A stretch of 64,000 nucleotides of DNA from Methylobacterium terrae (GTDB taxonomy: Bacteria > Pseudomonadota > Alphaproteobacteria > Rhizobiales > Beijerinckiaceae), in contig NZ_CP029553.1 in NCBI RefSeq assembly GCF_003173755.1, forward strand, positions 3,372,001-3,436,000, read 5' to 3'. Below the pieces are notes generated by a model, which saw nothing but the letters and a program-made list of their open reading frames with translations, did no database searches and was not told the DNA's origin. Position 1 is the stretch's first letter. Every line of letters begins with the position of its first letter. Shown piece after piece: positions 16,018 to 26,259 of the stretch. Position numbers and translations under genes: made by a program.

Positions 16018-16134
16018 ATGGCACGGGTGACCTGCCGCGTTCAGGACCGCCACGGCACCTACTACTTCCGGCGCGTCGCCCCGAAGGCGCTGCGGCCCTT
16101 CATGCCGGCCCCGTGGATGGGCAAGTCGGCTTGG
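16018..16134 (+). pseudogene. N-terminal remnant of a second phage integrase
   Basis: From ATG 16018 the translation runs MARVTCRVQDRHGTYYFRRV, then PKALRPFMPAP and GKSAWGR. This is the N-terminal signature of tRNA-directed tyrosine integrases (a GTYYFRR-x-x-P-x-x-LRP pattern before the core-binding domain). The match stops where the CRISPR array begins: the next codons are translated CRISPR repeats. It lies 89 bp past the tRNA-Glu fragment and reads away from it, as an integrase of an older island at the same site would. Confidence 0.7.
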
Positions 16135-16833
16135 GGACGATCCCCGCGTGGGCGGGGGAGCCACCGCAACGCGGATCCTCGACCGGTCCGTGATGGGTCG
16201 ATCCCCGCATGGGCGGGGGAGCCTCCAGGATCGCGAGGCGCAGCATGGCGCGCGTGGGTCGATCCCCGCGTGGGCGGGGGAGCCATGAAATGCTAACGGT
16301 CGGGCGAGTAAGGCGCGGGTCGATCCCCGCGTGGGCGGGGGAGCCCGGTCGGCGTCTCGGGTGCGGAGCACGGGGCGGGGTCGATCCCCGCGTGGGCGGG
16401 GGAGCCTTGAAAAGTCCCGGCTTCGCGCCTTTGCCGGCAGGTCGATCCCCGCGTGGGCGGGGGAGCCATACCGATATCGTCCCGCCATCCATCCGAGAAG
16501 GGTCGATCCCCGCGTGGGCGGGGGAGCCTGTTCTTATTTCTCCGAAACCATCCAGCTCTAGGGTCGATCCCCGCGTGGGCGGGGGAGCCAGCTTCAGATA
16601 GGCCCGGATCTGCGTCCGCCCGGGTCGATCCCCGCGTGGGCGGGGGAGCCCGCCCGCGATGTATGACGGCCCGGTGAGTCCGCGGTCGATCCCCGCGTGG
16701 GCGGGGGAGCCCGATGCGTAGGCTGTCCGAGACGCAGCGCGCCGGGTCGATCCCCGCGTGGGCGGGGGAGCCGAGGCGTCGGGCTGGCCCTTGCCCGCGG
16801 CCTCGGGTCGATCCCCGCGTGGGCGGGGGAGCC
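16135..16833 (-). CRISPR. Type I-E CRISPR array, 12 repeats and 11 spacers
   Basis: Twelve copies of a 28-bp repeat start every 61 bp exactly (16135, 16196, 16257, 16318, 16379, 16440, 16501, 16562, 16623, 16684, 16745, 16806). In crRNA sense (minus strand) the repeat begins GGCTCCCCCGCCCACGCGGG and ends GATCGACC, with a CCCCGC/GCGGGG hairpin. The base after each repeat is C in 9 of 11 cases, so the unit may be 29+32. The two repeats farthest from cas2 each carry one change (third + base T to A in the first; GCATGGG in the second), as expected for the old, trailer end. I found no spacer match within this window by eye. Confidence 0.97.
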
Positions 16834-16880: not shown

Positions 16881-17171
16881 TCAGCGGCGGACGAGAAGTG
16901 CGCCGTCGAGGTCCGCGAGAGTTCGCGGAGGAAGACCGAGCGTGCGCAGGCCGAGGCGCCCGGGAGCGGCGTCGTCCTTCCACAGGATCACGATCGAGCC
17001 GCCCGGCATGTCGGCCCACCACTCCGACAGCACCGTCCAGACCCGCTCGCGCACGCCGCGGGAGAGCTCGGCGGCGACGAAGACGCCCGGGGCCGCCTCG
17101 GGCATCACCGAGGACAGGAAGCCGCGGAAGCGGTCGGCGACGTCCCGCGTCACCACCACGGTCATCGGCAT
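16881..17171 (-). CDS. cas2: Type I-E CRISPR-associated endonuclease Cas2e
   Basis: 96 residues, the usual Cas2e length. Begins MPMTVVVTRDVADRFRGFL, the typical first strand and helix of Cas2e, followed by PGVFVAAELSRGVRERVW and GGSIVILWKD. It bridges two Cas1 dimers in the spacer-integration complex. GAGGAC precedes the ATG. It starts 46 bp after cas1 and is the last gene of the operon, immediately before the array leader. Confidence 0.93.
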   Translation of the reverse strand: MPMTVVVTRDVADRFRGFLSSVMPEAAPGVFVAAELSRGVRERVWTVLSEWWADMPGGSIVILWKDDAAPGRLGLRTLGLPPRTLADLDGALLVRR

Positions 17172-17217: not shown

Positions 17218-18090
17218 TCATGGGGTCTCCTCCTCGAACAGGGTCTTGATGCGGTCGATCATGGCCGGAATGACGCCGTCGCGACGCAGCCGCTCGGCGA
17301 CCGTTCGGCGCGCCAGGCGCTCGATCGGGTCGGTGGGGCGCTTCTCGTGCGCCTTCGCGGCCTTGAAGGCGCAGGGAACGGTGATCGTGTCCCGGAAGAG
17401 GTCGGCGACGTCGAGCACGAAGCTCTGGCCCGAATCCTCGTGGATGAAGCCGAGCTGCGGGATGGTCGCGGTCGCCGCGACCGCGATCGCGGCGGCGCCT
17501 TCCACCGCCGAGGCGGCGTGGTTGAGCGCCTGGTTCGGGATGTCGGCGGCGTTCGGGTTCTGGCGGTCGTAGCGGCGGCCCTGCCAGCGGATGCCGTGGC
17601 GCTCCGCCGCCTGGCGGTAGATCTCCTTCACCCGCGCGCCCTCGATGCCGCGCAGCACCGCGATGTCGCGATGCGGCAGGACTTCGCCGAGGCGCAGGGC
17701 GTACATCCGGCGCGCCACCTTCATGCGGCCGCCCTTGGCGTCGGCCCAGGCCGTCGCCTGCCGGCGCGCCAGCGCGGAGGTGTCGGGCAGGAGCGGCTGG
17801 GCGGTGTAGAAGCGCACGCCGCCCTCCCCGATCGCCGCGAGGGCGGTGTTGTGGCGCGCCAGGATGCGGAGCGCATCGTGGCTCACGGTCGAGCCCGGCC
17901 CGAGCAGCACCATCGAGAGCGCCTGGTGCGGGATGCGGTAGTCCCCGGCCTCGACCGTCTCGCTGCCGGCCGCGACGAAGCGCAGGCAGCCGTCCTCGAC
18001 CGTGAGGGCACCGCGGTCGAGCCAGACGAGGCCGTGCCGGTCGGCATGCGGCTGGCGCGCGGTCTCGAGCCCGAGGCGTCCTTTCAGCAT
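17218..18090 (-). CDS. cas1: Type I-E CRISPR integrase Cas1e
   Basis: 290 residues. Metal-binding residues of Cas1 are visible: Glu150 in RGIEGARVKE, His217 in LGFIHED, and Asp227/Asp230 in FVLDVADLF. The N-terminal beta domain is followed by an all-helical catalytic domain with NQALNHAASAVEGAA. It integrates new spacers at the leader end together with Cas2. It starts 4 bp after the cas6e stop, so translation is likely coupled. Confidence 0.96.
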   Translation of the reverse strand: MLKGRLGLETARQPHADRHGLVWLDRGALTVEDGCLRFVAAGSETVEAGDYRIPHQALSMVLLGPGSTVSHDALRILARHNTALAAIGEGGVRFYTAQPLLPDTSALARRQATAWADAKGGRMKVARRMYALRLGEVLPHRDIAVLRGIEGARVKEIYRQAAERHGIRWQGRRYDRQNPNAADIPNQALNHAASAVEGAAAIAVAATATIPQLGFIHEDSGQSFVLDVADLFRDTITVPCAFKAAKAHEKRPTDPIERLARRTVAERLRRDGVIPAMIDRIKTLFEEETP

Positions 18091-18094
18091 CGTC

Positions 18095-18883
18095 CTATTC
18101 CGGCGGCCGCAGCAGCAGCATGCCGAACCCGAAGGCGCGGTGGCGGCCGATCCCGCGGGCGAGGAGCGCCGCGAAGGCCTCCGGGTCCCGGACGATCAGG
18201 ACTCCCGTCACGGTCGCGTCCGGGTGGCCGGCGGCGCCCTTCATCTTCTGGCTCGGGAGCGGGATCTGCGCGAGGTGCCGCTCCCGGCCGCGGCGCAAGG
18301 AGCGGGTGAGGCGGAAGGCGTCGAGGCTCGCCCCCTCCAGCTCCGCGCCGCCGGCCGCGAGGTGGCGCGCGAGCCAGTCGCGGTAGACCTCGCCGCGGCC
18401 GAACGGGGCCGGCTGCCCCTCGTAAGGGTCGAGGGCTGCCAGGTAGGCGTCCTTTTCGCGCGTCCGGGTCCGGTCGCCGTCGCGGTCGCGGCGGACCGTC
18501 GGGCGGATGCGGGTGCGAAAGCCCAGCCGCGTCCCGGCCGGGAACCGCTCCGGCATGGCCTTGGCCGCCAGCCCGTCGAGGCCCAGGGCCTCGGCGACCT
18601 CCGGCTCCGCGAAGGCGGCGGCGTGAGCGCGCAGGGCTGCGGCGTCCCGGGTCGTGTAGCCGAGGAGTTGCGGCGCCGGATCGGCCCCCGGCCGCTCGCG
18701 CCGGCGCGGCGGGTCGAGCAGCACGAAGGGTTTCGGGGCGTGCTCGCCGAAGGCCGCCGCCAGGATCGCGTGGAGCGCGTAGCCGAGGTCGTCCGGGCCG
18801 TGGGCGGCGACCAGCTTGCGCCGCTCGGCCCAGCGCAGGAGCGGCCCCAGGGCCGGTCGCATCTGGAGGAGGATCAGCGTCAT
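18095..18883 (-). CDS. cas6e: CRISPR pre-crRNA endoribonuclease Cas6e (CasE)
   Basis: 262 residues from ATG 18883, which overlaps the cas5 stop (ATGA at 18880-18883). Tyr35 and His38 (GYALHAIL) fit the catalytic pair of Cas6e. The C-terminal Gly-rich loop GIGRHRAFGFGMLLL is the family signature. It cuts the repeat at the 3' base of its hairpin and stays bound to the crRNA as a Cascade subunit. It would also be the enzyme that processes the crRNA-like RNA proposed at 23540-23618. Confidence 0.93.
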   Translation of the reverse strand: MTLILLQMRPALGPLLRWAERRKLVAAHGPDDLGYALHAILAAAFGEHAPKPFVLLDPPRRRERPGADPAPQLLGYTTRDAAALRAHAAAFAEPEVAEALGLDGLAAKAMPERFPAGTRLGFRTRIRPTVRRDRDGDRTRTREKDAYLAALDPYEGQPAPFGRGEVYRDWLARHLAAGGAELEGASLDAFRLTRSLRRGRERHLAQIPLPSQKMKGAAGHPDATVTGVLIVRDPEAFAALLARGIGRHRAFGFGMLLLRPPE

Positions 18884-19611
18884 GCCGCCGCCCCCGGCCG
18901 CTTCACGGCCCGCACCCGCACGAGCCGGTGGCCGCCATGCACGCCCGAGCGCCAGTTGCGCGCGTCGGTCACCGGGCGGACGTGGTCGCCGGGCGCGGCC
19001 GGCTCGGATTCGGGCAGGAGGACGCGCAGGGTCGGGTCGCTGTCCTCCGCCGGCGGCAGGAGGCTGAGCGCTGCCACGAGGTCGTCGGCTTCGACGATGC
19101 GGAGTTCGCTCTCCGGTTCGAGCAGCGGCCGGGACGGCAGGCAGGGCTTGCGGCCGAGGAAGAGCGGCCGGGCGGGGTGGAGCAGCTTCGCCACGAGGTC
19201 GCCGAGGGTCGGAGCCGCCTCGGGCTGTTCCAGCCGCAGGGCGACGGCGCAGGAGACGTCGCAATCGTAGTCGCGGCGGCGCAGGTGCGGTCCGACGTAG
19301 CTGCCCGCCCCGCCGGCCCGGCCCTCCGGCCGGCCGCGGGTCGTCCAGCCGCGGTCGTCCTTGTCGAGCTGCGCGGTCTGGAAGTCGGTGATGCGGGCAG
19401 CCGTGCGGTCGAGGCGGGCGGCGTAGACGAGGCGGTCTTGCAGGGCCTGGAGCCGGTCCGCCTCGCCGCGGCGGTAGCCGAGCGCGTTGGCGAGCAGCCC
19501 CGTCAGCAGCGAGGCGCCGGGGAAATCTACGAGCACGCCGCGGGCATCGACCACCTCGCCCCCGAAGGCGAGGAGCGGCGCTTCGAGCCGCAGGAGCAGG
19601 AAATGCGGCAT
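18880..19611 (-). CDS. cas5e: Cascade subunit Cas5e (CasD)
   Basis: 243 residues from ATG 19611, which overlaps the cas7 stop (TGATG). N-terminal MPHFLLLRLEAPLLAFGG is the Cas5 first RAMP strand, followed by GVLVDFPGASLLTGLLANAL and, in mid-protein, SYVGPHLRRRDYDCD. Cas5e caps the 5' handle of the crRNA. Operon context is complete for type I-E. Confidence 0.93.
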   Translation of the reverse strand: MPHFLLLRLEAPLLAFGGEVVDARGVLVDFPGASLLTGLLANALGYRRGEADRLQALQDRLVYAARLDRTAARITDFQTAQLDKDDRGWTTRGRPEGRAGGAGSYVGPHLRRRDYDCDVSCAVALRLEQPEAAPTLGDLVAKLLHPARPLFLGRKPCLPSRPLLEPESELRIVEADDLVAALSLLPPAEDSDPTLRVLLPESEPAAPGDHVRPVTDARNWRSGVHGGHRLVRVRAVKRPGAAA

Positions 19612-20783
19612 CACTTCCCCTTTCCTGCGCTCGCCTGCCCTGCGCGCACCTGCTCGGCGGCCCAGGCGGCGAGGCCGTCGAGGGTCATCTGCCCGCCGAA
19701 GCCGGAGGCGCCGAGGCTGAGGTCGGAGGACTCGACGACCGAGAGGTTGGCGCGCTCCTCCTCCTGTCCGTAGGCGCGGTCGAGCCGGGTGAGGCAGGCG
19801 GCCATGGCGGCCACGGCCTCGGCCGCGAGGTCGCCGTCGCGCCGCAGCGGCACCGCCTTGCGGAAGGCGCCGGCGAGCGTGCGCGGCTGGCGCGATCCGG
19901 CCTCGACCAGCATCAGGTCGGCATAGGCGTAAGGGGCAGTCGAGCCCTTCTTGGCCCCGGGCGAGACGGTGGCGATGAGGTGGACGAGGTGCTCGACGAC
20001 CTTGGCGGCGAGGTCCGGATCACCCGCGAGGTTGGAGACGAGGAGCGGCACGTCGACCACCACGTAGCCGTAATAGAGCCCCGAGGTGAGTTCGGTGTCG
20101 AAGATGCCGCCGGAGCCGACCTCGCCGGCCGCGACCCGCAGGTCGTCGACGACGGTGAAGTAGTCGCTCTCGCTCTCCTGGGCGTGGACCGTGAAGGCGT
20201 GCGCGACGTGGATCGCCGCGTCGGTGTTGGCGTCGGGGTCGGAGGTGACCATCCGGCCGAACAGGGCCGCCTCGAGCCCGGCGGCGAGGGTGCCGGCGCT
20301 CGCCAGCATCGCCGCGAGGTTGGCCTTGCCGGTGCCCTTGGCGAGCCGCGCGTCGATCTCGGCCTCGGCCGACTTGGCATCCGTCGCGGCGGCCGCCGCC
20401 TCGGCCCCGATCCGGGCCAGGTACGCGATCTCGGGCTCGCCGAGGAGCAGGGCCTGCCGGTCGGCGATCTTGGCGCTGTTCTTGCCGTAGAGGTGCTTCA
20501 CCAGGGCGGCGCCGACCGCCTCGACGATCGCCGGCGCCGCCGTGATCTTGTCCAGGACGCGACGCTCGACGATCTCGCGCGAGCGCACCCCCATCGGCGC
20601 GCCGACCTTGCTCAGCGCCCAGGCGTCCTCGGCGAGGCGCCAGTGCCGCTTCAGGCTCTGCGACGAGACCCGGGTGCGCACCGACCCGCCATAGGGCAGC
20701 CGCTTGGCGAGACCGGCATCGTCCCGGTTCAGGAGCACGGCCGGGTAGGAGGCGAGGCTGTGGATCTGCAGGAAGCGGGTCAC
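19611..20783 (-). CDS. cas7e: Cascade backbone subunit Cas7e (CasC/Cse4)
   Basis: 390 residues from GTG 20783, whose bases overlap the cse2 stop (GTGA). N-terminal VTRFLQIHSLASYPAVLLNR is diagnostic of Cas7e, followed by RTRVSSQSLKRHWR. Later segments FDTELTSGLYYGYVVVDVP and SLGASGFGG are also conserved. Six copies form the helical Cascade backbone and kink the crRNA so that every sixth base is flipped out of the target duplex. Confidence 0.95.
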   Translation of the reverse strand: MTRFLQIHSLASYPAVLLNRDDAGLAKRLPYGGSVRTRVSSQSLKRHWRLAEDAWALSKVGAPMGVRSREIVERRVLDKITAAPAIVEAVGAALVKHLYGKNSAKIADRQALLLGEPEIAYLARIGAEAAAAATDAKSAEAEIDARLAKGTGKANLAAMLASAGTLAAGLEAALFGRMVTSDPDANTDAAIHVAHAFTVHAQESESDYFTVVDDLRVAAGEVGSGGIFDTELTSGLYYGYVVVDVPLLVSNLAGDPDLAAKVVEHLVHLIATVSPGAKKGSTAPYAYADLMLVEAGSRQPRTLAGAFRKAVPLRRDGDLAAEAVAAMAACLTRLDRAYGQEEERANLSVVESSDLSLGASGFGGQMTLDGLAAWAAEQVRAGQASAGKGK

Positions 20784-21460
20784 GCGGTCTCTCCGGGGGA
20801 CGAGGATGAGGGGGCGGTCTCGGATCCGGGCCTGGCGTCGGGTTTCGGCCCGGCCTCGGCCCGGTAGTAGCCGCGGGCGATGCGGTGGCGGACCGACTGG
20901 GCCCACGGATCCTCGAGATGGCGGGCCGAGGCGACGAGGTCGGCGACGGCGAGCACCGGCAGCCGCTTGCCCGCCCCGACGAGGAGCCGGACGATGCGCG
21001 GCATCACGATCCGCAGCTCGTCGGCGGTGGCGTCGAGCAGGATCGAGAAGCGGCGCTCGCTCACCCCCGCCTCGAACAGGTCGCGGCCGAACTGCCGTTG
21101 CGCACGGCGCGACCGCTCGGCCCAGAACGCCGCCCGCGCCTCGGCGCCGTTCTCCGCCGGCTCGTCCTCGCGGCGGGGGAAGGACAGGTGGTCGGGCGCG
21201 GCGAGCGCGGCCGCGTGGATGACGAGCGCCCAGGCCGGAAAGCCGGTCTCCCCCACCTCCCGCTCCGTGGTGTGGCGGGCGAGCAGCCGGTGCAGGGTCG
21301 GCTCGGCGAGCGCCCCGTTCGGATCGAGCCGCCGCAGCTCGGCCAGTGGGCCGGTGCCGAAGCGGTCCTCGTTCGTCAGCGGGGCCGCGATCCGGGCGGC
21401 GATCTCGGCGCGGTGGCGGGGCGGCGGGTCTCCGCCGGCGGGATCAGGCTGCGTCGTCAC
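20780..21460 (-). CDS. cse2: Cascade small subunit Cse2 (CasB)
   Basis: 226 residues from GTG 21460, overlapping cse1 by 17 bp. Contains GPLAELRRLDPNG near residue 35, the usual Cse2 motif, and an Arg-rich helical body (RFSILLDATADELRIVMPRI). Two copies contact the target and non-target strands. The last ~25 residues are Pro/Ser-rich and probably disordered. Confidence 0.9.
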   Translation of the reverse strand: MTTQPDPAGGDPPPRHRAEIAARIAAPLTNEDRFGTGPLAELRRLDPNGALAEPTLHRLLARHTTEREVGETGFPAWALVIHAAALAAPDHLSFPRREDEPAENGAEARAAFWAERSRRAQRQFGRDLFEAGVSERRFSILLDATADELRIVMPRIVRLLVGAGKRLPVLAVADLVASARHLEDPWAQSVRHRIARGYYRAEAGPKPDARPGSETAPSSSSPGETA

Positions 21461-23021
21461 GCTTCGGCTCCGGGAAGAATTTCGGCAGATCGGATTTCGG
21501 GTTGCGCGTGCCGGCCCGGAACACGGCCTCGGCCCGGACCAGTGCGCGCCAGCGCCGCCCCACGGCCTTCGACAGGCCGGCATCGGCCTCGACGACGAGG
21601 GGCCAGGCGACCCCGTTCACGAGGCGCCGCACCCAGGCCGTGCGCACGGCGTCGGGATCCGCGTCCGGCTCGACCTCGGCCCACAGATCCTCGAAGAACG
21701 TGGCGTCGACCGCCCGGTCGAACCGGGCGAGGAGGTCGCGCGCGCGGGCATTCGCGCCCTTGTCCTGGTAGTCGACCTGATCGGGCCCGTTCTGGAACAG
21801 GGCGAGCAGGGCCGGCTTCAGGACGCGGTTCTGGATCTCGCCGGCGAGCGCGACCCGCTCGGTCGCGGCGCGCCCGATCGCGTCGGTGGCGCGGGTGCGC
21901 AACGCCCGGTACACGGTCCGGCTGATCGGGAGGCGCCGCTCGTGCCAGCCCTCGGTCTTGCCCTGCCCGCGGGTCAGCGCCCGGGCCAGGACGACGAGGC
22001 CTTCCTCGGCGTCGGTGGGCAGCGTCGCGGCGAGGACCGGCAGCGCGTGCCCCTCCCGCTCGAAGAGCAGCCGCACGATGCGCCGGTAGTGGAAGCCCCC
22101 GGCATCGACGGTGAGGATTCTCGGCCCGTCCTTGTCGGTCACCGTCGGCGCCCAGGGGTCGCCGGGGGCGCCGCCGGGGATCGGAACGATGCGTGCCACC
22201 TTCGAGCCTCCCGCCCGCGCGGCGATCCGGCCGCCCTCCTCCACGAGCCGGACCCGGCGGCAGATCTCGATGTGGAGCGGATCGAGCTCGGACGGCGGCA
22301 GCGCGGTCGCGCCGTCCCACGGACGCAGCCAGACGAGACCGAGCCCGCCTTCGGCCGCGTAGACCGTCGATGCCCCTTCGGTCTTCCGGAGCGCCACCAG
22401 GGCCTCGACGTCGCGCCGGACCGGCGAGACCGGACCGGTCGTCGGCACGACGCTGAAGGCCGGCCGGTTGGCGAAGCCGCCATTCATGCGGGAGATGCCG
22501 TAATTCCCCGCGCCGAGAAAACCTTCGCTGGTCTGCAGGGCGACGAGGGCGAACAGCCAGTCGTCCGGCTCCGCCGCCATCATCACCTCGCTCTTGAGGT
22601 CGTGGTTCTTGGAGGTGACCAGCATGTCGAGCGCGTCCGGGGTCGGGACGGCGTTCTTGAGGTCCTTCAGCCCGCCCGGGATCGGCGGTTGCAGCAGCGC
22701 CGGGCGGTCCGGCGGCGCGACGAGGCACCAGGGTTCGTCCCCGGGAAAATCGGCGGTCAGCCCGCGCAGCAGGTCGCGCCACGTCTCCTCGTCCTCGGGC
22801 ATCGCCTCGCGACCGGCGCGGAGCAGCGCGAGCGCGCCGAGCTGCACCAGAAAGGCGTGCCAGGCGTGGCGTTGGTGGGGACGCAGGGCCGGGAAGCTTG
22901 AGATTGCATTGCGGGCAAGAGCAGCAAAAACGCTTGGCAGCGTACTTACTGCGCGATTACCATCTAAAATTACTCGAATCGCCTTATTTAATATTAGATT
23001 TTTAATCGACATTGCGTGCAC
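21444..23021 (-). CDS. cse1: Cascade large subunit Cse1 (CasA), short-N-terminus variant
   Basis: 525 residues from GTG 23021 (ATG 23012 is an alternative). FPALRPHQRHAWHAFLVQ at residues ~43-60 is the family hallmark, then GNYGISRMNGGFANRPAFS, a PAM/target contact region. It recognises the PAM and recruits Cas3. The first ~40 codons (MSIKNLILNKAIRVILDG) are AT-rich and diverge from the usual start, which in homologues reads like NLL-x-x-PWIRVRL, while the rest is normal GC-rich host sequence. The composition break is near 22,905. Promoter at 23050-23078. Confidence 0.93.
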   Translation of the reverse strand: MHAMSIKNLILNKAIRVILDGNRAVSTLPSVFAALARNAISSFPALRPHQRHAWHAFLVQLGALALLRAGREAMPEDEETWRDLLRGLTADFPGDEPWCLVAPPDRPALLQPPIPGGLKDLKNAVPTPDALDMLVTSKNHDLKSEVMMAAEPDDWLFALVALQTSEGFLGAGNYGISRMNGGFANRPAFSVVPTTGPVSPVRRDVEALVALRKTEGASTVYAAEGGLGLVWLRPWDGATALPPSELDPLHIEICRRVRLVEEGGRIAARAGGSKVARIVPIPGGAPGDPWAPTVTDKDGPRILTVDAGGFHYRRIVRLLFEREGHALPVLAATLPTDAEEGLVVLARALTRGQGKTEGWHERRLPISRTVYRALRTRATDAIGRAATERVALAGEIQNRVLKPALLALFQNGPDQVDYQDKGANARARDLLARFDRAVDATFFEDLWAEVEPDADPDAVRTAWVRRLVNGVAWPLVVEADAGLSKAVGRRWRALVRAEAVFRAGTRNPKSDLPKFFPEPKRDDAA

Positions 23022-23049: not shown

Positions 23050-23078
23050 GCTATAAACTAGTTTTGCGCCGGCTTCAA
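23050..23078 (-). promoter_or_regulatory. Promoter of the cse1-cas2 operon
   Basis: Minus strand TTGAAG (reverse complement of 23073-23078), 17-bp spacer, TATAGC (23050-23055). It predicts a 5' leader of about 22 nt to the GTG or 31 nt to the ATG of cse1. The surrounding 23,022-23,160 is AT-rich. Confidence 0.55.
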
Positions 23079-23246
23079 TCCCGCAAATGCCGAAATTTGG
23101 TTTGATTTTCCTACAAGATATGCGAAAGTAACAGGGGCACGTATCGTGTGAGCCTATTTTGTCCTAAAATTAGCCTATGGATCTAGCGGCAACTTCCGGG
23201 ACGCTATCCTCCAACGGGAGGTCGGCAGGGGTGTCAAGATTCGTAA

Positions 23247-23273
23247 CTAGCTAGCGTGATTTAGCGATAGCAG
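23247..23273 (+). promoter_or_regulatory. Predicted Cascade target site of the crRNA-like RNA
   Basis: TAGCTAGCGTGATTTAGCGA (23248-23267) and the next six bases match the pseudo-spacer at 23569-23594 in 21 of 26 positions. Mismatches fall at spacer positions 6, 14, 21, 24 and 25, so the seed (1-5, 7-8) is perfect; 6 and 24 are positions that Cascade flips out. The three bases before it are AAC (23245-23247); C is the base most often found right after the genuine repeats, so AAC is a plausible PAM. The site ends seven bases before the -35 box at 23280, and on the other strand overlaps a possible -10 (TAAATC). Confidence 0.7.
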
Positions 23274-23279
23274 TCGCGA

Positions 23280-23308
23280 TTGACAAGGAGTACCGAAAAC
23301 GCTATGGC
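23280..23308 (+). promoter_or_regulatory. Promoter next to the predicted Cascade site
   Basis: TTGACA (23280-23285, perfect -35), 17-bp spacer, TATGGC (23303-23308). A Cascade covering the 32-bp footprint from 23248 would reach the -35 box. The promoter points at the small ORF 23333-23539. The overlapping reverse strand has TTGTCA (23281-23286) and TAAATC 17 bp away, a possible weaker promoter towards cse1. Confidence 0.5.
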
Positions 23309-23332
23309 TGTCTGAGAGTAGGATGGCGCTAC

Positions 23333-23539
23333 ATGCTGAGCCCGTTTCAGAATCCATTCGCTCCAACTCGACGGGAGCGCCGCGCACTTCGACGTGGCAT
23401 CGTGGTTTCGAAACGGTTCTTTAGGCTGCATTACCGGCATCAATTTCATTGGGAACTCACAACCGCATGCCGGGTTGGACGCGGGTTGGATACGCCGCGG
23501 CCAGAGCGCTGGCATTACAAAGTATTCGTTGATACATAA
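23333..23539 (+). CDS. Candidate toxin-like small basic protein (68 aa), creT position
   Basis: A 68-codon ORF, ATG 23333 to TAA 23537-23539, with AGGATGG six bases upstream. Thirteen Arg and several His make it strongly basic (TRRERRALRRG; RFFRLHYRHQFHW). No known family is recognised. Its place is what makes it notable: it starts ~18 nt after the predicted start site of the promoter at 23280 and its stop is one base before the degenerate repeat at 23540. A 33-codon ORF (23323-23424) overlaps in another frame, and a toxic RNA instead of a protein is equally possible, as CreT toxins are often RNAs. Confidence 0.35.
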   Translation: MLSPFQNPFAPTRRERRALRRGIVVSKRFFRLHYRHQFHWELTTACRVGRGLDTPRPERWHYKVFVDT

Positions 23540-23618
23540 TATTCCTCCGCCTCGTCGGAGATGGCCCCTAGCTCGCGTGATGTAGCGAGAGTTGGGCTCC
23601 CCCGCCCACGCGGGGATC
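23540..23618 (+). ncRNA. Minimal CRISPR / crRNA-like RNA (CreA/CreR-like): degenerate repeat, 26-nt pseudo-spacer, repeat
   Basis: On the strand opposite to cas3 and the main array. The intact repeat copy at 23595-23618 equals the first 24 bases of the array repeat. Twenty-seven bases upstream, 23540-23567 aligns without gaps to the same repeat (18 of 26 at positions 4-29). It keeps a stem CTCCG/CGGAG (23545-23549 and 23556-23560) where C7-G20 became T-A, a compensatory pair. The 8-nt handle ATGGCCCC resembles the normal ATCGACCC. The spacer between starts TAGCTCGCGTGATGTAGCGA (23569-23588) and resembles 23248-23273. The second repeat diverges only after the Cas6e cut site, where it runs into the cas3 stop codon. 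A CATAAT lies at 23535-23540 as a possible -10. Confidence 0.75.
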
Positions 23619-26259
23619 AGGCGTTCCGTCTCAGCCCGAACCGGTCATACGTGAACACGCTCGGGCCGAGGCGGAACGTGAAGCCATCGCCATCACCTAG
23701 AGTTTCCACAAGATCTGGTTGAGCGTCAACCGAGATGTTCGCGGCCACGTGGTGCGGCAGCTTCAGCGAGGGCACCGGCCGGCCGAACGGGCCGGTCGGG
23801 AGCGGCTGTCCCTCCACGTCGAACGCGACGTGCCGGTCGGCGCCGCCGATCCGCGTCGCGATGATCTCGTCCGGCTCGATCCGGAACGCGGTGAACGGCC
23901 GGTCGAAGCGCAGCAGCGCGCCCTGCGCCGCGTTGAGGTCGGCGAAGTACCGGCCGGTGCGCCGGTCGAAATGCGGCCGCCAGGCCGGGTCGGCGGCGGT
24001 CAGCTCCGCTTCGATCGCCGCCAGGGCGTCGGGGTGGGTCGCGGCCTCGACGAGGCGCCGGTTCATCGCGGGAATCGTCCAGACCGGCTCGGCCTCGACG
24101 AGGCGCCGGGTGAGTTCGAGGATGCGCAGGTCCTCGTAGACGCCGCCGGTCTCGCCGGAGCCGAGGCCGTAGGCGCGCAGATCCGCCCGGAACAGCTCGC
24201 GGCCCTCGGGGACGAGCACCACTGCGCGCGGCGCGGCGTAGCCCGCCGGGCGGGGCCGGCCGGCGTGGCGATGGAGGCGGCCGATCCGCTGCAGCAGCAC
24301 GTCGACCGGGCAGAGGTCGGTGAGGAGGAGGTCGGCATCGAGGTCGAGGGACTGTTCCAGGGTCTGCGTGCCGACCACGATGCGGCCGCCCGCCTCGCGC
24401 TCGCGCCCGATCGCGGCCTCGACGGCGGCGTCGAGGAGGCGCCGGTCGGGCTCGGCGAAGCGGGAATGGTGCAGCGTCGCGATCCCCCGCCCGTCCGCGT
24501 GGGGCACCCGGAAGAGCGTCGCGCCATCCGCCCGCGTCGCCAGGGCCTCCAGGGCTTCCTGTGTGCGCAAGGCCTGGCCGACGGTGTTGCGGACGATCAG
24601 GACCTTGGCGCCGGCGCGGGCCGCGGCGAGGCTCGAGGCCGCGACGGCGTCGGGATCGGCGAGGATCGGGCGGGCCTCCAGCCGGACGGCCTTGCCCTCC
24701 CCGGCCGCGCCGAGGGGCTGGCGGCGCTCGACACCGTCCTCGCACCAGCTCAAGGCCGGGTAATCCACCGCATCGGCCGCCGCCCGGTCCGGAACCGTCG
24801 CGGCGCCGAGCAGGCGGGCGCGCGCACCCGCGCCGAGCGTCGCCGACAGGAGCAGCGCGTGCCCGCCCGCCCCGACATGGAAGCGCAGCAGGTTCGCGAG
24901 CAGGCGCTCCATGTAGGCGTCTGAGGCGTGGACCTCGTCGATCACCAGGAGCTTGCCGAGGAGCGAGACGGCGCGCAGGTGCGCGTGCTTCACCCGCACC
25001 GCGCCGAGCAGGGCCTGGTCGATGGTGCCGACGGCGATGGGCGCCGCGAGGTAGCGCTTGGGATGCTCGGCGGCCCAGCGGGCGGCGCGGTCGCCGTCGT
25101 CGTTCCACTGGACGTCGAAATCGGGCAGGCGCGCGCCCTCCGCCTCGTCGACGCGCATCTGCCCCGGGACGGCGAGCACCACCGCCGGCCGCCAGTCCGG
25201 CGGGAAGACGTTGTCCCGGAAGCGCTTGACCCGCTCGAAGATCTGCGTGGCCGCGACGCGGGTCGGCAGCGCGAAGTACAGGCCGTCGACGGCGCCGGCG
25301 CGAAAGAGCTCGATGAAGCGCCACAGGGCGGCCTCGGTCTTGCCGGAGCCGGTCTCGGCCTCCAGCACCAGCAGCTGTGCCGGATGGCGCGCCGCCTCGG
25401 CCTGGATCGGCCGCGCCGCGAAGGGCGGCCGGCCGGCCTGCGCGAAGGCGTGCGGGAAGCCCGCCCCGACCCGGCGCGCCGCCTCCCGCGCGGGCTGCGC
25501 GTCGAGGCCCGTCGCGGTCAGGACGTCGGCCGCGCGCTCCCGCGCGAAGGCCATCCTGTCGGCGTGTCGTCCCTCGTCGAAGGGGAAGAAGCCGGGGCCC
25601 GGGTTCGAGCCTAGCCAGTCGGCCAGCATCAGGAGCCCCGCGAAGGCGTGCGCGACGGCGGGCTGGTCGGGCAGCGGGCTCCCGTCGGCGAGCGCGTCCC
25701 CGAACCAGGCGTCGAGGGCCGCCCGCATCGGTCCGAGCCGGGCCACCGGATCGCCGGGCCCGCCGCGCCACTGCGCCGAGGCATCCCTGACATCGGCCTG
25801 GGAGCCCTCGTGCCCGAGCGCCCAGGGCCGCCCGTGATGGGCGAACACCGCGTGGAACAGGTCCGGCTCGTCCTCGGGAAGCCACGCCGCGACCCGGTCG
25901 AGCCCGAGCCGTTCGGACAGCCGGTCGCACACCGCGTCCGCGCCGCGACGAGGGGAGAACACCCAGGCGAGCTCGTCGATGTGGCCGACGCGCGGCGCGT
26001 TCGCGTCCGACCGCGCCTGGAAGCCGCGATTGGCCTTGCCCACGTCGTGCAGGAAGGCGAGCGCCGAGAGCTTGGCCGAGATCGAGGATGCGGCCGCCGC
26101 GTCGGTCCGGCCGAACCGCCGCAGGCGCTCCCCGATCGTCGGCAGGTCGAGCAGGGCCGCCAGGACGGCGCCGACATCGGCGGAATGTCCGACCAGGGAA
26201 TGCCACCGGCCCGCGGCATCGCGCTTCGCCCAGAGATCGTCCTGTGAAAAGGCTGTCAC
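23617..26259 (-). CDS. cas3: CRISPR-associated helicase/nuclease Cas3 (HD + DExH)
   Basis: 880 residues from GTG 26259. N-terminal HD nuclease: His20/His25 (WHSLVGHSADV) and His71-Asp72 (AFLHDVGKAN). Superfamily 2 helicase: Walker A EAETGSGKTEA near residue 303, LVIDEVHASDAYM (DEVH) near 440, LLSATLG, and QRIGRLHRHAG (motif VI) near 665. It is recruited by Cascade to unwind and degrade targets. The stop codon (23617-23619) lies inside the minimal-CRISPR repeat of the opposite strand, so the two transcripts converge. cas3 has its own AT-rich promoter region upstream. Confidence 0.97.
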   Translation of the reverse strand: MTAFSQDDLWAKRDAAGRWHSLVGHSADVGAVLAALLDLPTIGERLRRFGRTDAAAASSISAKLSALAFLHDVGKANRGFQARSDANAPRVGHIDELAWVFSPRRGADAVCDRLSERLGLDRVAAWLPEDEPDLFHAVFAHHGRPWALGHEGSQADVRDASAQWRGGPGDPVARLGPMRAALDAWFGDALADGSPLPDQPAVAHAFAGLLMLADWLGSNPGPGFFPFDEGRHADRMAFARERAADVLTATGLDAQPAREAARRVGAGFPHAFAQAGRPPFAARPIQAEAARHPAQLLVLEAETGSGKTEAALWRFIELFRAGAVDGLYFALPTRVAATQIFERVKRFRDNVFPPDWRPAVVLAVPGQMRVDEAEGARLPDFDVQWNDDGDRAARWAAEHPKRYLAAPIAVGTIDQALLGAVRVKHAHLRAVSLLGKLLVIDEVHASDAYMERLLANLLRFHVGAGGHALLLSATLGAGARARLLGAATVPDRAAADAVDYPALSWCEDGVERRQPLGAAGEGKAVRLEARPILADPDAVAASSLAAARAGAKVLIVRNTVGQALRTQEALEALATRADGATLFRVPHADGRGIATLHHSRFAEPDRRLLDAAVEAAIGREREAGGRIVVGTQTLEQSLDLDADLLLTDLCPVDVLLQRIGRLHRHAGRPRPAGYAAPRAVVLVPEGRELFRADLRAYGLGSGETGGVYEDLRILELTRRLVEAEPVWTIPAMNRRLVEAATHPDALAAIEAELTAADPAWRPHFDRRTGRYFADLNAAQGALLRFDRPFTAFRIEPDEIIATRIGGADRHVAFDVEGQPLPTGPFGRPVPSLKLPHHVAANISVDAQPDLVETLGDGDGFTFRLGPSVFTYDRFGLRRNA

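Follow-up and report, generated by a model that had tools for sequence, protein, structure and literature searches.

In the type I-F CreTA module of Acinetobacter, as described in PMC10097628, a two-repeat creA with a short, 20-nt guide occupies the intergenic site between cas3 and cas8 (csy1), the guide matches in part a PAM-flanked site at the creT promoter, and a small ORF with a Shine-Dalgarno sequence lies downstream of the target; the PAM is CC, creA is divergent from the 33-bp mini-ORF, the toxin is an RNA and the pairing is described as having no canonical seed. In the haloarchaeal type I-B CreTA modules, as presented in PMC8501985 and PMC9458426, the seed comprises positions 1-5 and 7-11 with position 6 free (a rule proved by mutation for haloarchaeal CreA; PMC8501985), psiR1 is the more diverged psiR, the PAM is TTC, and the toxin is an RNA whose mini-ORF sequesters tRNA. 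According to the same two sources, creT and creA share one promoter in H. hubeiense. In CrePA, the repressed partner is a protein, CreP, which is said typically to carry a KilA-N domain and to act on FtsZ (PMC12737573), while CreR is a regulatory RNA from a mini-CRISPR that targets a cas promoter by partial match and is reported from types I-B, I-E and V-A (PMC13131331, PMC12737573). A 2025 review asks whether CreTA- and CrePA-like modules occur with other CRISPR types and with other cellular targets (PMC12737573).

We analyzed a stretch of 64,000 nucleotides from the genome of Methylobacterium terrae (hereafter the window), in which the 595-bp gap between cas3 and cse1 of a type I-E locus contains a mini-CRISPR on the strand opposite to the cas genes. 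On balance, we favor the interpretation that positions 23245-23618 represent a type I-E module similar to CreTA or CrePA, in which a crRNA-like RNA would guide Cascade to repress a small, likely toxic protein ("LSPF"). The locus shares with the Acinetobacter module (PMC10097628) the intergenic site, the two-repeat unit with a short guide, the partial match to a PAM-flanked promoter site and the Shine-Dalgarno small ORF downstream of the target, whereas it differs in being of type I-E and in having an AAC flank, a canonical seed and a co-oriented, conserved 68-codon ORF. With the haloarchaeal modules, it shares the seed pattern and the more diverged first repeat, and the arrangement in H. hubeiense resembles that of the window module; the archaeal setting, the TTC PAM and the RNA toxin set those modules apart (PMC8501985, PMC9458426). 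As in CrePA, the repressed partner would be a protein, but Pfam found no KilA-N domain in LSPF (PMC12737573). CreR likewise involves a mini-CRISPR RNA with a partial promoter match, but the predicted promoter at the window target faces the small ORF, away from cse1. The parallel with CreA and CreR drawn in the initial annotation is supported. As CreR-type guides are already described from type I-E (PMC13131331), there is no novelty in the type I-E setting by itself. For type I-E, the window module may provide an answer to the question raised in the review. In a literature search, no title or abstract on a type I-E CreTA or on an LSPF protein was among the matches listed; the primary CreR and CrePA papers could list the locus.

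The mini-CRISPR and its setting in the type I-E locus

The recognized parts of the locus (cas3, cse1, cse2, cas7, cas5e, cas6e, cas1e, cas2e and the array) and of the module are listed in Table 1. While cse1/casA was without a Pfam match at E 0.001, it was identified by its TIGR profile. As the profile match of cas6e sits in residues 232-387, the ORF as listed is over-long. By cse1 identity, the nearest named relatives are M. terricola (83%; L027, the same locus as L023) and M. platani (78%; L031).

Table 1. Features of the module and of the type I-E locus, in window coordinates
Feature	Position	Strand	Remarks
PAM-like 5'-AAC flank of target	23245..23247	+	AAC in M. terricola too
Predicted Cascade target (protospacer)	23248..23273	+	21/26 identical to guide spacer
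Promoter-like sequence (predicted)	23280..23308	+	TTGACA-N17-TATGGC; starts 6 nt past target
Shine-Dalgarno-like AGGA	23320..23323	+	9 nt before ATG; same distance in M. terricola
68-codon ORF (LSPF, small basic protein)	23333..23539	+	codons 23333-23536, stop 23537-23539
Degenerate repeat 1 (psiR1)	23540..23568	+	5-bp stem; 18/26 vs last 26 array-repeat positions
Predicted 5' handle	23561-23568	+	ATGGCCCC; end of repeat 1
26-nt guide spacer	23569..23594	+	between repeats 1 and 2
Repeat 2 (psiR2)	23595..23618	+	identical to first 24 nt of array repeat
Predicted 3' hairpin of repeat 2	23595-23615	+	
Candidate own promoter of cse1 (predicted)	23050..23078	-	TTGAAG-N17-TATAGC; 170 bp from target
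cas3 (HD + helicase)	23617..26259	-	stop codon overlapped by repeat 2
cse1/casA	21444..23021	-	TIGR02547
cse2 region	20780..21583	-	TIGR02548
cas7/cse4	19611..20906	-	TIGR01869
cas5e	18880..19614	-	TIGR01868
cas6e region	18095..19264	-	TIGR01907, 40.2 bits, under cut-off 45.2
cas1e	17218..18090	-	TIGR03638
cas2e	16881..17171	-	TIGR01873
Type I-E CRISPR array	16134..16833	-	repeat GGCTCCCCCGCCCACGCGGGGATCGACCC, 32-nt spacers

The initial annotation had described two repeat copies on the + strand, opposite to all cas genes and the array, one of them exact over 24 bases and the other degenerate, with a spacer of 26 nt instead of 32 nt. Each of these points was borne out. Repeat 2 is the sole exact + strand copy in the window, all 11 further exact copies being on the - strand (16139-16833), and repeat 1, besides matching at 18/26 positions, has its 5-bp stem (CTCCG/CGGAG) in register. 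Over the two strands of the window, 127,948 positions were scanned; array matches aside, six of them reach at least 18/26, and the stem is in register in two of these, i.e., in the two mini-CRISPR repeats alone. Spacers in the three arrays of the genome measure 32 nt (26 of 27) or 33 nt (one of 27). Predicted folding yields a hairpin for each repeat and, for the RNA by itself, additional pairing that involves part of the spacer and handle. At the sequence level, a creA-like unit with two repeat-like copies within the cas locus and with stems and handle kept, as in CreTA and CrePA, is present. An ordinary minimal CRISPR array, with a full-length foreign spacer and identical repeats, does not agree with the 26-nt spacer, the self-target and the degenerate repeat 1.

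The further claim that repeat 2 is exact up to the Cas6e cut site and diverges after it held in part; the divergence is present, but the identity extends 3 nt beyond the expected cut (23615/23616). The cas3 stop codon (complement of 23617-23619) lies at the place of this divergence, which cas3 coding therefore also enforces. The end of repeat 2 overlaps this stop codon (23615-23619), so that changes at the guide end and at the cas3 end are linked.

Away from the cas locus, two more arrays were observed whose I-E repeat is almost identical to that of the window array (L092 and L093, at approx. 3.236 Mb and 3.649 Mb of the genome). The last repeat base over the three arrays (n = 27) is C in 21, T in 4 and G in 2 cases and varies as if acquired from the PAM, which may provide weaker support for AAC as the PAM. 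A blastn search with the window array, aimed at a PAM from array spacers, gave no phage match. The 67 records from a plasmid blastn search with this array were taken as repeats of other arrays, and viral-contig scans with single-spacer pieces gave 12, 0 and 0 records, of which the 12 span just 21-25 of 32 nt and were attributed to chance.

Predicted target, promoter-like sequence and small ORF

The guide and its predicted target agree at all ten seed positions (1-5 and 7-11), with mismatches at positions 6, 14, 21, 24 and 25; the second-best place for the spacer in the 64 kb reaches 17/26, as compared to 21/26 for the target. The AAN-plus-seed pattern of the guide occurs once in the 6.16-Mb genome, i.e., at this target, and the M. 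terricola guide has its own target at the homologous place (21/26, seed 10/10, AAC). At the position of the promoter-like sequence, M. terricola has TTGACC-N17-TATCGC; a stricter generic promoter scan did not list TTGACA-N17-TATGGC. The window target is additionally overlapped by TTGTCA-N17-TAAATC on the - strand, of which no counterpart was found in M. terricola. The candidate promoter of cse1 in M. terricola is TTGACA-N16-TATAAA, and over the window and M. terricola its distance to the target is 170-185 bp. While the choice between CreA and CreR and the identity of the target had been left open at first, the target is now seen to lie beside a likely promoter that belongs to a small + strand ORF rather than to cse1. 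The guide thus matches a PAM-flanked site at the predicted promoter of a neighboring non-cas gene, as in CreTA and CrePA. A target at the promoter of the locus's own cas operon, as in CreR, was tested by sequence and not found in the window, and the module is therefore not classed as CreR; nor is it classed as a KilA-N CrePA.

The target, the promoter-like sequence, the 68-codon ORF and the two-repeat mini-CRISPR follow one another in a compact unit that is conserved in M. terricola, and in other lineages this layout recurs with guides of different sequence. Identity to M. terricola is 25/29 for the PAM and target, 23/24 for the stem and handle of repeat 1, 24/26 for the spacer, 22/24 for repeat 2 and 152/207 for the ORF (66/78 in the first 26 codons, 35/66 in the middle and 51/63 in the last part), as compared to just 104/222 (47%) for the flank on the cse1 side. 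These figures agree with the initial proposal of selection for a functional crRNA, as opposed to decay or a deletion scar; free drift of the degenerate repeat and spacer was looked for in relatives and not seen.

The ORF, whose stop is directly followed by the first base of repeat 1 (23540), has 68 codons in M. terricola as well, with 63% identity. Differences between the two species at codon positions 1, 2 and 3 number 10, 9 and 28 among aligned codons; the two gap-free ORF ends taken separately give 4/3/10 and 1/3/7. This third-position excess indicates a coding signature. In a search of 110 genomes of the genus, a convincing match to the ORF was found in two, i.e., the window genome and M. 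terricola, with a second copy in none; the next best match (E 0.005) has an internal stop. The protein has a pI of 11.7 (8.9-11.8 over six members), and its structure model (pLDDT 60.8) shows one low-confidence helix. Pfam and PADLOC searches with five LSPF members gave no match beyond Peptidase_C1 at chance level (E 0.061), and NCBIfam gave none for the window member. A homology search with a single LSPF sequence was empty, a database search with the LSPF alignment returned one relative, the L045 protein itself, and a plasmid tblastn search gave two weak matches (E 2 and 6). Judging from the module architecture, LSPF is probably a toxin. Opposite the small gene, the - strand has an ORF of 84 codons (23261-23515) that is without a Pfam match and probably mirrors the coding frame.

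Guides and targets among type I-E loci

The sequences up to 1.5 kb upstream of cse1 were compared among 60 type I-E loci (43 plus 17 more, fragments included). The set of 25 guides comprised 20 from the first scan, one from the second (L069) and four first set by eye (L020, L021, L048 and L055); the ends of the L048 guide were set after its target was seen, and a later scan also found it. Duplicates or fragments (L022, L027, L031, L034, L038, L053, L058, L072-L074, L084, L088 and L089) and real arrays (the L029 matches and the L039 matches beyond -1200) were left out, and the "minis" of L086 and L091 were dropped as spurious.

An AAN-flanked site with at least 9/10 seed identity in the 1.5 kb before the guide's own cse1 was found for 22 of the 25 guides (10/10 for 16), in a test slightly biased for the four guides whose ends were set by eye, as compared to 6 of 576 pairings of guides with other loci and 5 of 1000 shuffled guides (10/10 in none of either). 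Counting close relatives once leaves 19 groups, of which 17 reach 9/10. The covariation named as a check in the initial annotation is hence seen, as guides change sequence together with their targets. The guides under 9/10 are those of L025 (no AAN site with at least 7/10 within 1.5 kb), L037 (7/10 in register) and L069 (8/10). A good match of the L037 guide needs one base skipped near position 6; the guide reaches 9/10 in one register, with flank CAA, and 7/10 in the other, with AAC. In a shuffle test without PAM over 900 bp, P was at most 0.017 for 18 of 20 guides, and 0.58 and 0.71 for L024 and L025; L024 showed a 10/10 seed site once 1.5 kb was searched. Guides were present in two Woeseiaceae loci from the named genomes (L039 and L040), and none was accepted among 14 loci of a phylum-wide sample.

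Sixteen guide-target pairs (one per close group, without L021, L037 and L069) agree at position 6 in one case and at positions 1-5 and 7-11 in 14 to 16 cases; because the pairs were chosen by seed score, only position 6 and positions 12 and beyond are free readings. This pattern corresponds to the CreA geometry and seed rule (PMC8501985).

The motif M/V-L-S-P-F...R..RR marks relatives of LSPF in three further lineages (L028, L032, which is Alpha proteobacterium Q-1, and L045), where they are located between target and guide, as is a more divergent protein, likely an LSPF relative, in L048; distant members have little in common beyond the first 17 residues. The unit is oriented towards cse1 in these four loci and away from it in the window and M. 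terricola, and, as guide and small gene remain together in either orientation, the small gene was taken as the controlled partner. In the same four loci, the second hairpin of the guide ends 15-32 bp before the cse1 start, so that one guide would probably control both the small gene and cse1/Cascade.

Guide spacers measure 20 nt in L020, L028, L032, L055 and L056, 26 nt in the window and M. terricola, and approx. 32 nt (30-34, with ends uncertain by 1-2 nt) in the others. The short guides thus fall on 6-nt steps below 32, 6 nt being the Cas7 unit of type I-E Cascade. Shortened guides are described to repress without cleaving in type I-B (PMC10989794, PMC10551041), and a 20-nt guide is also described for the I-F CreA of Acinetobacter (PMC10097628). 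As for shortened Cascades repressing genes, a 2023 paper states that there is no evidence for the E. coli system (PMC10551041); the natural 20- and 26-nt guides would test such repression by shortened type I-E Cascades.

Proposed mechanism and alternative explanations

Under the interpretation that we favor, the mini-CRISPR would be transcribed and cut by Cas6e to an RNA of approx. 55 nt (8-nt handle, 26-nt spacer and 21-nt hairpin), which would load into the Cascade of this locus; the spacer being 6 nt short, this Cascade would probably contain one Cas7 fewer. We infer this loading, as the initial annotation did, with backing from the seed and position-6 pattern. Cascade at the target would block RNA polymerase at the -35 element, 6 nt beyond the target, and self-cleavage is proposed to be avoided because the PAM-distal pairing is partial. 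With less certainty, LSPF would be toxic, and loss of Cascade or its inhibition by an anti-CRISPR would release it. More broadly, and as a tentative suggestion that we hold somewhat short of even confidence, alphaproteobacterial type I-E systems may be self-addicted via a new LSPF toxin family held by Cascade, with guides in 6-nt steps (20, 26 and approx. 32) corresponding to fewer Cas7 and with guides that face cse1 autoregulating and guarding Cascade. The locus offers an exact, testable guide-target-gene triple, in a genus of which named strains are in culture, and LSPF represents a small-protein family without a match in the family libraries searched.

That the RNA instead guides Cascade to repress the cas genes, the small ORF being incidental or a leader gene, appears unlikely. 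Such regulation is described for type I-E (PMC13131331), and in the Methylobacterium loci L010 and L011 (approx. -90 upstream of cse1) just 0 and 1 nt separate the end of the target from a -35-like hexamer in front of cse1; the -10 is weak and the promoter scan did not list this promoter, and these two guides look CreR-like. In L028, L032, L045 and L048, moreover, the hairpin lies so near cse1 that the promoter of the unit would drive cse1 too. In the window and M. terricola, however, the target adjoins a promoter-like sequence facing away from cse1, which has another candidate promoter at some distance, the guide has no other AAN seed match in the genome, and the ORF is under coding constraint. 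A role of LSPF as a Cas accessory protein or regulator (e.g., an activator or an anti-Cas brake), with its level sensed by Cascade via the guide, seems to us rather doubtful, although in all six loci where LSPF was seen it lies within a cas locus (in a sample made up almost wholly of cas loci), no second copy was found in the 110 genomes, and the protein is small and basic; against such a role, it matches no known family, and nothing independent points in either direction.

Even less probable is that the transcript or the first mini-ORF codons are the toxic agent and the 68-aa protein is irrelevant. The CreT toxins described are small RNAs (PMC8501985, PMC10097628), and the Acinetobacter I-F module with its 20-nt guide occupies the homologous place between cas3 and csy1 (PMC10097628), but the third-position excess, the 68 codons in both species and the motif kept at the protein level across lineages argue against an RNA toxin. 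We regard a functionless relic, i.e., a minimal array or a duplicated array end, as very improbable; while repeat 2 is nearly intact, as would suit such a relic, the self-target has a PAM and a full seed, the module is conserved next to a drifting flank, and other lineages have the same geometry with different sequences.

Besides the LSPF modules, the gap in L020, L021, L050 and L069 contains a small ORF whose frame continues across both repeats and the spacer and ends in a similar P..RG(K/E) tail, so that the guide RNA and the protein C-terminus would share DNA; these four loci may represent a second class of module. In L016, L017 and L026, a 57-aa DUF1508 protein (PF07411, E 5e-8 for the L017 protein, the sole one scanned) lies between the guide and a target near the cas3 end with an AAC flank and a 10/10 seed.
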